A DNA stretch of 64,000 nt from Bacillota bacterium (GTDB lineage: Bacteria; Bacillota_I; Bacilli_A; Izemoplasmatales; Hujiaoplasmataceae), in assembly GCA_018816905.1 (NCBI GenBank), contig JAHIVB010000004.1, positions 1-64,000 on the forward strand, read 5' to 3'. The notes below the pieces were generated by a model. That model saw nothing but the letters and a program-made list of their open reading frames with translations, was not told where the DNA came from and did no database searches. The translations under genes were made by a program, and so were the position numbers. Positions 56,878 to 64,000 of the stretch are shown here, piece by piece. The stretch's first letter is position 1. Every line of letters starts with the position of its first letter.

Positions 56878-58215
56878 ATGAAAGTAATTGTTATAGGATG
56901 TACCCATTCAGGTACAGCCGCAGTCAAAAATATAAAAAAACTATACAAAGAGGCCGAAGTGACAGTCTATGAAAGAAATGACAACATTTCTTTTCTGTCT
57001 TGCGGAATCGCATTATATGTTATGGGCGTTGTTAAAGACCCACAAGGATTGTTTTACTCATCACCAAAAGAATTGTCTGAGATGGGTGTGAACACTAAAA
57101 TGCAACACGAAGTCGAAAAAATCGATTTTGAAACTAAGAAAGTTTATGTAAAAGATTTAGTTACCAATTCTTCATTCGAAGATTACTATGACAAATTAGT
57201 AATTGCGACAGGATCTTGGCCGATTATTCCAAGAATCGAAGGTATTACATCTTCAAATGTTCTTTTGTCAAAGAACTATGGACATTCGAATGAAATCATC
57301 GCTCAGGCAAAAGGTGTGAAAAAAATCACGGTTGTCGGCGCAGGATACATTGGAGTTGAACTAGCTGAAGCTTTTGCTGTTCAAGGAAAAGAAGTTACTT
57401 TGATTGATGCAGAATCAAGAATTATGCCCAAGTACCTGGACCCGGAATTCACAAACATCGCAGAAGAGGCCTTTAGAAAAGGTGGAATCAAGCTTGCGCT
57501 CGGAGAAATGGTTTCTAGATTTGAAACAGAAGAAGGTCTCGTAAGCAAGGTTGTCACTAACAAAGGGTCATATGAAACAGAATTGGTTATTATGTGCATT
57601 GGTTTCCGCCCGAACACAAAATTGTTTGAAGGCGGAATTGAAATGAATAAATTCGGTGCCATCATCGTAGACGAGTACATGCAAACTTCAAGAAAAGAAG
57701 TGTTTGCTTGCGGAGACGCTGCAACAGTTCACTACAATCCAACGAACGAAACAAGGTATATTCCACTAGCTACCAATGCAGTCCGAATGGGAACATTGGT
57801 TGCCAGAAACCTTGTTAAACCAACCATCAAGTCATTGGGAACGCAAGGAACTTCAGGTATTCAAATTTATGAGTACAGCATTTCATCAACCGGTCTCACC
57901 GAAATTGTTGCCAAAGAGATGAACATCAATTATGGAACCGTTACGATCAAAGACAATGACAGACCTGAATTCATGCCTGAATACGTTGAAGTTATGTTGA
58001 AAATAGTATTTGATAAGGACTCAAGACAACTATTGGGTGGACAAATCCTTTCAAAGAAAGACGTGACTCAGAATATGAACACTTTGTCGGTTTGTATTCA
58101 AAACAAGATGACTGTAGAAGATTTGGCATTTGTTGATTTTTTCTTCCAACCTAATTTCAACAAGCCCTGGAATTTATTAAATTTGGCCGGGCTTGCAGCA
58201 CTTGATGTAAAATAA
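56878..58215 (+). CDS. NADH oxidase / CoA-disulfide reductase family flavoprotein
   Basis: The 445-residue product has the FAD-binding start VIVIGCTHSGTAAVKN, the redox-active Cys in SFLSCGIALY near residue 43, the NAD motif VVGAGYIGVELAEAF near 153, and FACGDAATVHY near 280. The single active Cys is typical of water-forming NADH oxidase and CoA-disulfide reductases. In an anaerobe it would remove O2 with NADH or regenerate CoA thiols. Clear AGGAGG precedes the ATG. A terminator follows. Confidence 0.88.
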   Translation: MKVIVIGCTHSGTAAVKNIKKLYKEAEVTVYERNDNISFLSCGIALYVMGVVKDPQGLFYSSPKELSEMGVNTKMQHEVEKIDFETKKVYVKDLVTNSSFEDYYDKLVIATGSWPIIPRIEGITSSNVLLSKNYGHSNEIIAQAKGVKKITVVGAGYIGVELAEAFAVQGKEVTLIDAESRIMPKYLDPEFTNIAEEAFRKGGIKLALGEMVSRFETEEGLVSKVVTNKGSYETELVIMCIGFRPNTKLFEGGIEMNKFGAIIVDEYMQTSRKEVFACGDAATVHYNPTNETRYIPLATNAVRMGTLVARNLVKPTIKSLGTQGTSGIQIYEYSISSTGLTEIVAKEMNINYGTVTIKDNDRPEFMPEYVEVMLKIVFDKDSRQLLGGQILSKKDVTQNMNTLSVCIQNKMTVEDLAFVDFFFQPNFNKPWNLLNLAGLAALDVK

Positions 58216-61227: not shown

Positions 61228-61264
61228 AAAAAGAAAAGCACCGATTTCAGTTTGAAATCGGTGC
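61228..61264 (-). terminator. Terminator of the nuoD / nuoI-gltD operon
   Basis: On the minus strand a perfect 12-bp stem GCACCGATTTCA / TGAAATCGGTGC is followed by TTTTCTTTTTC. It marks the end of the operon. Confidence 0.87.
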
Positions 61265-61274
61265 AAGTAATCCA

Positions 61275-63275
61275 TTACTTTCTTTTTGGTTTCATTGCGA
61301 GAACTGGAGTGTTGAAGTGAATTGCTTCTCTAAGTTCTTTATAGTACTCGCTTTGTTCTTTCTTTTTCGATTTTTTGTAAAGGAATTCGTCGATTCCTTG
61401 AGCTGCTCTGTGACCGTCTGCGACACCGGTAATAATGTCTGGTCCACGGAAGATGTCTCCACCGACGAATAGCCATTCTTGTCCTGCGACTTGTCCGACT
61501 TCGTTGGCTTTGATTTTTCCACGTTCAATAATAACTTTGTCTTTCATGCTCTCTGGAATGTAATCATAATCGGGAGCTTGACCAATGGATAGATAAACTT
61601 GATCTGCTTCGAAAACTTGTTCCTGAGTTTCATCGAACTTTGGATTGAATCTACCGGCTTCATCAAATACACTTAAGCATTTCCATACTTTGAGTCCTTT
61701 GACTTTTCCGTTTTTAATCATGATTTCTTGCGGGCCGAATCCTAGTTCCATTTTTACCGCTTCTTCCCCGCCTTCAACGAACTCATCCAAACTAGCTGGA
61801 AGAATGTCTCTGGATTCAAGGCTTGTCAGCAATACATTGGCTTTTCCGTATTTCATGATTTGGATTCTTGTCAAGTTTCTTGCGACGTCAAATGCAACGT
61901 CTCCTCCACCGACAACGACTGCGCTTGGCAAAACATTCATTTCATCCAATTTGAGGTGTCCTCTTGCGAGGTCTCTTGCGAGTGGAAGGAAATCCATAGC
62001 GCCGATAACGTCTTTATGATCTGCGCCAGGAATGTTTAGCATTCTAGCTTTGAAGAATCCGGTTCCCAAAAATACAGCATCATATTTCTTTTGTAATTCA
62101 TCTAGAGTAATATCGGTTCCAACTCTTGTATTTGTTTTGATGTTTACACCAATCTTTTTGATGAAGTTGATGTCTTTTTCAACTGCGTAATCTGGAATTC
62201 TGTACTGTGGAGCACCGTAGCTTGCAACACCACCTGGGCGATCTTTTTCTTCAAATACATCAACAGTATACCCGAGTGCTCTCAAGTAGTATGCAGCACT
62301 TAAACTGGATGGACCAGATCCTGCAATCGCAATCTTGGCATCAATCACTTCGGTAACGGGTTCAGCGAATATTTTATCATACATGTCATCCGGTGCACTG
62401 TCAATGATATAGCGTTTCAACCAACGAATCGCAATAGCTTCGCCTCTGACGGCAATAGCGCAAGCTGTTTCGCAGTTGTGAGTACAAACTCTACCGCAAA
62501 CGCCAGGTAATGGATTGGTTTCATATATCTGTCTCAATCCACCCTCAATATCATCTTCCCAAATTGCTTTGATGTAATCTGGAATGTGCATTTGAACAGG
62601 ACAAGAACTAGTACAAATTCCGCATTCTACACAACGAGCCGCTTCTTGTCTTGCATATTCTTTGGAATAACCACGAACCACTTCGATGAAACTTTTCTTT
62701 CTTTCGTCAGGTTCAATATGTTCCATCGGAATTCGTTTCAGGTCAAGCAAATCGGATTCTTCCGTTTTAACGTAACCTTGTTCTACTTTTTCACCTTGCC
62801 ATGTTTTTTCAGGCATTAAAAGGAATTGATCAGGATCCGTAGAAGCATAGATGTACTCTTTACTCATCTTGAGAGATTCAGTTGTACATGTGTCAACGCA
62901 AAGAGCGCAGAAGCAGCAACGTCCGTAGTCAATGACGGGACGTTGTTGAAGTTTTCCTGCTTCGTCCTTCAAGTCAGCACGTTCTACCATTCTGATTGCA
63001 TCTGTCGGACAAATGTCTGCGCATGTTCCACATCCGATGCAGACTTCCCAATCATTGGTATGAAATCCTCTTAAATTATCTGGAGCCGTTCTAGGAGCGG
63101 AATCCAGTCTCTTCTTATTTTTGATGATGGCGTTATCGTTTAGATAGCTTGCATTTTTCCTCGTGAAGATGATTTTGAAAGGATGAGTGACAGGTTTCTT
63201 GAAGATGTACTTGAAATGTCTCATCGGACCGAAGATGCTAGCGTGTTTGTATCTCTTGTTTTCGTTATCTTTCAT
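61275..63275 (-). CDS. NuoI-like ferredoxin fused to a GltD/NfnB-like NAD(P)H flavoprotein
   Basis: The 666-residue product joins two redox modules. Residues about 1-175 resemble NuoI (KPVTHPFKIIF, then CIGCGTCADICP with Cys79, 82, 85, 89 and a second set Cys120, 123, 126, 130), binding two [4Fe-4S] clusters. Residues about 200-650 resemble the GltD/NfnB flavoprotein: Cys215, 218, 221, 225 (CVECGICTSSC) and Cys260, 264, 268, 272, the FAD loop AGSGPSSLSAAYYL near 318, GGVASYGAPQYRIP, and the NADPH loop VVGGGDVAFDVARN. It would pass electrons between NAD(P)H and the clusters. GGAGGAGA precedes the ATG. It is the last gene of the operon, 11 bases after the NuoD-like gene. Confidence 0.9.
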   Translation of the reverse strand: MKDNENKRYKHASIFGPMRHFKYIFKKPVTHPFKIIFTRKNASYLNDNAIIKNKKRLDSAPRTAPDNLRGFHTNDWEVCIGCGTCADICPTDAIRMVERADLKDEAGKLQQRPVIDYGRCCFCALCVDTCTTESLKMSKEYIYASTDPDQFLLMPEKTWQGEKVEQGYVKTEESDLLDLKRIPMEHIEPDERKKSFIEVVRGYSKEYARQEAARCVECGICTSSCPVQMHIPDYIKAIWEDDIEGGLRQIYETNPLPGVCGRVCTHNCETACAIAVRGEAIAIRWLKRYIIDSAPDDMYDKIFAEPVTEVIDAKIAIAGSGPSSLSAAYYLRALGYTVDVFEEKDRPGGVASYGAPQYRIPDYAVEKDINFIKKIGVNIKTNTRVGTDITLDELQKKYDAVFLGTGFFKARMLNIPGADHKDVIGAMDFLPLARDLARGHLKLDEMNVLPSAVVVGGGDVAFDVARNLTRIQIMKYGKANVLLTSLESRDILPASLDEFVEGGEEAVKMELGFGPQEIMIKNGKVKGLKVWKCLSVFDEAGRFNPKFDETQEQVFEADQVYLSIGQAPDYDYIPESMKDKVIIERGKIKANEVGQVAGQEWLFVGGDIFRGPDIITGVADGHRAAQGIDEFLYKKSKKKEQSEYYKELREAIHFNTPVLAMKPKRK

Positions 63276-63286
63276 CGTATCTCCTC

Positions 63287-64000
63287 CTACCTGTCAATTT
63301 CTGGCGAACATACGCCCATCGTGTCAATCCACATCGGCGCATCGTCAATTCTAGTTCCTGGCATGTATTTTTCAACACCAAGTAATCCTTGAGGATAACT
63401 TGCGCCACGTACTCCGACTCTGTATGGATTGGTTCCGCCATCGGAAACCATGAAATATCCAAATTCGCCTCTGCTTGATTCTACTGCACTGTATACATAA
63501 CCTTTTGGTACAACCCAACGCATTGATTGACCTCTGGAGATTGGAACTCTGACAGGCCCTTCAGGAATTTTAATCAAACATTGTCTGATGATGCTGATGG
63601 ATTGAAGAATTTCTTTTAATTTGCAGTCGATACGGCTTCTCGCGTCTGAATAATCTGAGTAAGGTACTTCAAATTCGACTTGGTCATATCTGCAATAAGG
63701 CATGACTTTACGAATATCATAAGGTTTATTCACTGCAGAACGCATACCGATTCCGGTTACTCCAAGTTCCCATACAACTTCTTTTGGAAGCATGATGGTG
63801 TCTTTTATTCTTTTTATGATGGATGGGTTGTCGATACCAAGATCACGATATTCGTCATATCTTGCTTCTAAACTATCCAAGAATTTATGGATGTCTTTTT
63901 CAATTCCTTTTGGTAAGTCTTTACGAACTCCACCAATCACAATGTATTGGTGATATACACGCATACCTGTGATTTGTTCAAAGATATCCAAGATTTCATT
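63287..64000 (-). CDS. NuoD-like 49 kDa subunit (partial, runs off the window)
   Basis: The minus-strand frame is open to the right edge (the codons at 64000-63992 read Asn-Glu-Ile), so the N-terminal part lies outside. The visible 238 residues match complex I subunit NuoD: FEQITGMRVYHQYIVIGGVRKDLPKG, RKVMPYCRYDQVEFEVPYSDYSDARSRIDCKLKEI in pieces, GPVRVPISRG, and ESSRGEFGYFMVSDGGTNPYRVGVRGASYPQ. It ends VCSPEIDR with only one cysteine, lacking the C-terminal CxxC that binds nickel in group 4 hydrogenases. It is therefore a quinone-type or other non-hydrogenase subunit. Confidence 0.88.
   Translation of the reverse strand, partial: NEILDIFEQITGMRVYHQYIVIGGVRKDLPKGIEKDIHKFLDSLEARYDEYRDLGIDNPSIIKRIKDTIMLPKEVVWELGVTGIGMRSAVNKPYDIRKVMPYCRYDQVEFEVPYSDYSDARSRIDCKLKEILQSISIIRQCLIKIPEGPVRVPISRGQSMRWVVPKGYVYSAVESSRGEFGYFMVSDGGTNPYRVGVRGASYPQGLLGVEKYMPGTRIDDAPMWIDTMGVCSPEIDR

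Follow-up and report, generated by a model that had tools for sequence, protein, structure and literature searches.

A 13-gene MBX/MBS-type operon of the Izemoplasmatales with a candidate NADH module fused to its ferredoxin subunit

We found that the minus-strand genes at the end of the window (the whole 64,000-nucleotide stretch analysed here) belong to a 13-gene operon that almost certainly encodes an MBX-type (hydrogenase-related, Ehr) membrane complex, whose ferredoxin subunit N carries a fused GltD/NfnB-like flavoprotein. We favour the reading, at a probability of roughly 0.55, that this complex is an MBX/MBS-type membrane oxidoreductase that is fed with NADH via the fused GltD half, pumps ions, and probably passes the electrons to an acceptor other than a quinone. 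We do not regard it as a new class: the complex is of the MBX/MBS kind, and its fused subunit has the architecture of an existing family.

The preliminary description had reported two genes 11 bases apart and a terminator behind them, and these were found as follows, together with the predicted cofactor sites:

61275..63275, minus strand: N-GltD fusion gene, 666 aa; MbxN/NuoI-type ferredoxin plus GltD/NfnB-like flavoprotein, PRK13984 architecture
62886..63041, minus strand: two [4Fe-4S] sites of the ferredoxin half, residues 79–130 (C79 C82 C85 C89 / C120 C123 C126 C130)
62460..62633, minus strand: cysteine-rich [4Fe-4S] region of the GltD half, residues 215–272, PF14691; eight invariant cysteines
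61806..61922, minus strand: nicotinamide-binding Rossmann motif, residues 452–490 (GGGDVAFDVAR ... TSLES)
about 61228–61264, minus strand: intrinsic terminator-like hairpin and T-run 3' of the fusion stop, GCACCGATTTC-AAACT-GAAATCGGTGC-TTTTCTTTTT
63287..64000, minus strand: 3' part of the L subunit gene (NuoD/MbsL-like); the full gene extends to contig position 64393 and encodes 368 aa

Reading beyond position 64,000 added 11 further genes (K, J, M, H', H, G, EF, D, C, B and A) upstream to contig position 72056, including NuoB-, NuoC- and NuoH-like genes and the antiporter-like H and H'. All 13 genes lie on the same strand of the contig (G000:C13, 97,677 bases) in the order A-B-C-D-EF-G-H-H'-M-J-K-L-N, and, apart from the L-to-fusion gap, neighbouring genes overlap or abut. 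A corresponds to MnhE, B to MrpF, C to MnhG, D to MbhD, EF to MnhB with MbhE, and G is MnhC/NuoK-like; M corresponds to NuoH, J to NuoB, K to NuoC, L to NuoD, and N is the N-GltD fusion. The longest-ORF start of the NuoC-like K gene (L002:4393-5058) overlaps J by 98 bases, and its start is probably the ATG 26 codons downstream.

This layout, with its Mrp-type Na+/H+ subunits, agrees with the ion-pumping kind of enzyme that had been proposed from the two genes. On the other hand, the complex had been called small, which does not fit an operon of 13 genes that includes Mrp-type subunits and two large antiporter-like ones. Similarly, the kinship with complex I holds, but the idea of a cut-down complex I gives way to an MBX/MBS-type complex, as judged from the operon layout and the bit scores.

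A separate nuoEFG set is absent from the 13-gene operon, and L is the only NuoD-family gene in the window genome. The NuoF-family genes of this genome lie on other contigs, in a HydABC-type [FeFe]-hydrogenase cluster (C17), near a second [FeFe]-hydrogenase gene (C2), and as a PduS-like gene (C4). The genome has two [FeFe] hydrogenases, one with NuoE/NuoF-type partners, and it also has a separate, complete NfnAB; because the latter sits on another contig, the operon was rejected as half of an Nfn. On contig C4, a BMC-domain shell protein adjoins a PduS-like protein (PF01512 with RnfC_N; L077:1932-3862, G000:C4, about 61931–63861), and this pair is a bacterial microcompartment locus. Within the window, positions 56878–58215 (plus strand), some 3 kb away from where the MBX operon ends, encode a 445-aa protein of the NADH oxidase/CoA-disulfide reductase family (NF046103, 476 bits, and PRK09564, 434 bits, both under the cut-off). 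The P. furiosus sulfur reductase NSR presumably belongs to the same broad family.

MBX/MBS complexes are seen as connecting the hydrogenases with mitochondrial complex I. The position of the window complex among these relatives was judged by the PDB bit scores of J, L, M, and N, and for J, L, and M the closest match among solved structures was the P. furiosus MBS. L scored 260 bits against MBS compared with 238 against complex I Nqo4 and 102 against MBH; J scored 223 bits compared with 129 for the best complex I type and 101 for MBH; and M scored 176 bits compared with 65 and 75 (complex I and MBH). For the ferredoxin part of N, MBS was the best within the NuoI-type matches, with 68 bits compared with 40 for NuoI. 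The P. furiosus MBS (formerly MBX, PDB 6U8Y) also has 13 genes, a membrane arm of Mrp-type and H/H' subunits, and the M-J-K-L-N order. Its MbsN is about 208 aa long and has no flavoprotein, whereas the window N is fused to GltD. Later work identified the P. furiosus MBX as a sulfane reductase, and MBS needs no quinone to reduce polysulfide (PMC7684303). Complex I (NuoA-N) shares the homologous B, C, D, H, and I core with the window complex, in which, however, NuoEFG is lacking, Mrp-type subunits replace NuoA/J, and the quinone tyrosine is missing.

The key residues of L and J combine features of both relatives. Both paired nickel motifs are absent from L, as had been noted earlier for the C-terminal one, and only one cysteine of each is left (C64 and C362, both invariant). 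These are the equivalents of C85 and C385, the two vestigial cysteines of MbsL; the N-terminal part of L thus contains a single shared vestige (C64) and no pair. A group 4 [NiFe] hydrogenase was rejected because the four cysteine Ni ligands are absent, with C64 and C362 alone remaining. As for a quinone site in the NuoD-like protein, L has an incomplete pair of complex I quinone headgroup residues: the histidine is retained (H16, equivalent to Nqo4 H38; absent from MbsL), but V or P occupies the position of the tyrosine (Nqo4 Y87). In J, C39, C42, C43, C107, and C137 are invariant in the aligned orthologues. J reads CTGCC, that is, the tandem cysteines of complex I plus the extra cysteine of MBS (CTGCCA, compared with CTGCGG in MbsJ). 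The proximal cluster of MBS, which is the catalytic site, has three cysteine ligands only (PMC7684303); judging from these residues, that of J could be fully cysteine-ligated. Because J keeps the tandem cysteines of complex I, giving a fourth ligand, the polysulfide mechanism of MBS cannot be assumed here.

The fusion protein consists of a NuoI/MbsN-type two-cluster ferredoxin followed by a full GltD/NfnB domain (PF14691 plus PF07992). The similarity to MbsN spans residues 67–194, and that to NfnB, dihydropyrimidine dehydrogenase, and GltD proteins spans residues 180–632. The ferredoxin half and the GltD half each contain eight cysteines, none of which varies among the aligned orthologues, and the nucleotide-binding glycine motifs are intact. 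Among 18 distinct sequences, which include those of single-contig genomes, orthologues share about 58–81% identity with invariant cofactor residues, a conservation far beyond chance. An AlphaFold2 prediction from an 8-sequence alignment (mean pLDDT 41.5, pTM 0.35) was unusable. We also observed that K287 of the fusion is invariant, where NfnB and GltD proteins have Glu (window about 62415–62498, residues 260 and 287). In DPD, Gln is a cluster ligand at the equivalent position; given K287, one of the GltD-half clusters may be ligated differently.

The fused architecture is not new, as it is already catalogued, without a function, as NCBIfam PRK13984 (NF010590, "putative oxidoreductase", 611 positions). 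Residues 12–635 of the window fusion align with model positions 9–609 (842 bits, E 2.6e-253), which is below the curated cut-off of 946 bits, and the window protein is, by this comparison, a divergent relative of the PRK13984 members. Among 14 control genomes, the sole match at E 1e-200 or better was in Thermotoga maritima, full-length and above the curated cut-off. We take this T. maritima gene to be TM1217, presumably located in the mbx operon. T. maritima has a 13-subunit MBX (PMC9431562). In our literature search, which did not extend to the main papers on MBX evolution, PRK13984 was not named and a description of the Thermotoga fusion gene was not found.

The fusion was found in at least 15 other genomes of the Izemoplasmatales and their neighbours, unsplit in independent assemblies; with single-contig genomes among the 18 distinct sequences, an assembly artefact was rejected. 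Of the 395 genomes of the class, only those of two Izemoplasmatales families (f1 and f2), plus G130 and G015 of other families, gave matches with ≥60% identity, and all other GltD/NfnB-like matches listed had ≤39% identity. Similarly, in a 392-genome sample of the phylum, L at E 1e-40 was found in this group only. The named relatives are Candidatus Izemoplasmatales/Izimaplasma, and the rest are Bacillota MAGs. The full operon is present at 12 other loci and elsewhere as far as the contigs reach, except in G277, from which we did not recover the first part of the fusion gene. Searching plasmids with the fusion at E 1e-60 gave no matches. In G130 (L062, G130:C1:634000-650500), which belongs to another family, the L of the operon is 84% identical to the window L, about as close as that of members of the window's own order, and from these sequences the whole operon was possibly transferred between families.

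Which nicotinamide would the flavoprotein use? In 17 of the 18 distinct fusions, SLE stands where NADP enzymes have YRR, and the most divergent fusion has ALE there, whereas the separate NfnB of the window genome retains YRR. The loss of two arginines and the gain of one acid suggest that the GltD half uses NADH rather than NADPH. With NfnB/NfnL of NfnAB, to which its GltD half is about one-third identical, the fusion shares a GltD-type flavoprotein that carries a two-cluster Fe-S domain at its N-terminus, but it differs in that the operon has no NfnA, SLE stands for YRR, and the protein is joined to a subunit of a membrane complex. A further parallel is Sporomusa StnC, in which a GltD-like domain is covalently linked to an Fe-S chain and serves as a non-bifurcating NADPH input module; in contrast to the fusion, StnC is soluble, its GltD is joined to a NuoG-like domain rather than to NuoI/MbxN, and it uses NADPH (PMC10482914). 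In Nuo-Bfu, another input module is likewise predicted in place of the NADH module of complex I (PMC9304861). Taken together, the flavoprotein is quite likely the NAD(P)H module of the complex, and the earlier proposal that it stands in for NuoEFG appears plausible from the sequence.

In the reading that we favour, the FAD in the GltD half would take a hydride from NADH rather than NADPH and release the electrons singly, first to the two GltD [4Fe-4S] clusters, then to the two of the ferredoxin half, and finally to the proximal cluster of J. The acceptor would be reduced there, at the chamber between J, L, and M, and this reduction would power the pumping of ions through M, H', H, and the Mrp-like subunits. 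A soluble ferredoxin may dock on N as well, as a possible second donor. The acceptor would be small and probably not a quinone, and the kinship with MBS and the lack of quinone genes favour a sulfane/disulfide-type compound, as in MBS, as the most likely choice. Sulfane itself is, however, the least certain step of the explanation and is put forward tentatively, at less than even odds. The potentials of NADH and polysulfide are about −320 mV and about −270 mV, respectively; as little energy would be released, electron transfer from NADH to polysulfide is a poor fit to pumping unless ferredoxin donates electrons too. The tandem-cysteine proximal cluster, the quinone histidine without the quinone tyrosine, and the fused NADH module could also indicate a quinone-independent, NADH-driven ion pump that lies between MBS and complex I, although we regard this as rather doubtful.

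A true complex I analogue, that is, an NADH:quinone oxidoreductase with an unusual NADH module that takes quinones from the surroundings, would be consistent with the retained H16 and with the tandem cysteines of J. It would be harder to reconcile with the V or P in place of Y87 and with the bit scores, which are closer to MBS than to complex I. Moreover, UbiA (quinone synthesis) was detected neither in the window genome, which is 86% complete so that absences weigh little, nor in 15 fusion-bearing genomes of the order; fusion-bearing G112 gave a weak partial match. Cytochrome bd was likewise not detected in the window genome (86% complete) and most fusion-bearing relatives. Because three such relatives (G012, G048, and G249) do have cytochrome bd, the use of a scavenged quinone is possible, and a published quinone-linked chain in a cultured relative (PMC8397711) points in the same direction; overall, we consider this explanation unlikely. 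In several Izemoplasmatales, we observed a cytochrome bd gene within a few kb of an Rnf/Nqr-family gene (G012:C1:988296-992788; G048:C1:128057-132438; G249:C12:3253-7644; G548:C6:3482-7873), with UbiA undetected in these genomes.

We judge it similarly improbable that the complex is an Rnf-like ferredoxin:NAD(P)+ oxidoreductase coupled to ion pumping, with ferredoxin delivering electrons to N and the GltD flavin passing them to NAD(P)+. The long-standing description of MBX was that of a ferredoxin:NADP oxidoreductase (PMC4596419, PMC3608648), and the fused subunit has plausible docking sites for both partners; however, both sites would lie away from the J/L/M coupling chamber, which would leave no evident drive for pumping, and the P. 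furiosus precedent turned out to be a sulfane reductase (PMC7684303). Such an activity would also be redundant in the fusion-bearing relatives within the order, which carry Rnf-family genes, though none was found in the window genome. An Rnf/Nqr-family gene is present in 85 of the 90 genomes of the order, and its absence from the window genome reflects either a gap in the assembly (86% complete) or a true loss. The NfnB-like fold family and the invariant R359, equivalent to NfnL R201, would allow a bifurcating or confurcating complex, in which the GltD flavin acts like the bifurcating FAD of NfnB and links NAD(P)H with ferredoxin in one reaction. The non-bifurcating StnC keeps the same arginine (PMC10482914), however, and with no NfnA in the operon, a complete NfnAB elsewhere in the genome, and an altered YRR site, we hold this to be very improbable.

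The oxidoreductase favoured here, with its NADH module fused to N, would show that such a machine can acquire a nicotinamide module by a second route. The key residues of the complex mix those of MBS and complex I. These findings also bear on a cultured isolate, Xianfuyuplasma coldseepsis zrk13. G048, the probable genomic counterpart of this isolate, carries the operon, with L as its sole NuoD-family gene. In zrk13, "NADH-quinone oxidoreductase" genes were up to 20-fold upregulated in rich medium, and an H+-transporting "complex I" was placed in a quinone-linked chain (PMC8397711). Because L is the only NuoD-family gene of G048, the published "complex I" of zrk13 is most likely this MBX-type complex, and the induced genes probably include this operon. 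Consequently, the published metabolic model of zrk13 probably needs correcting, and the cultured relative makes the role of the complex and its need for a quinone directly testable.
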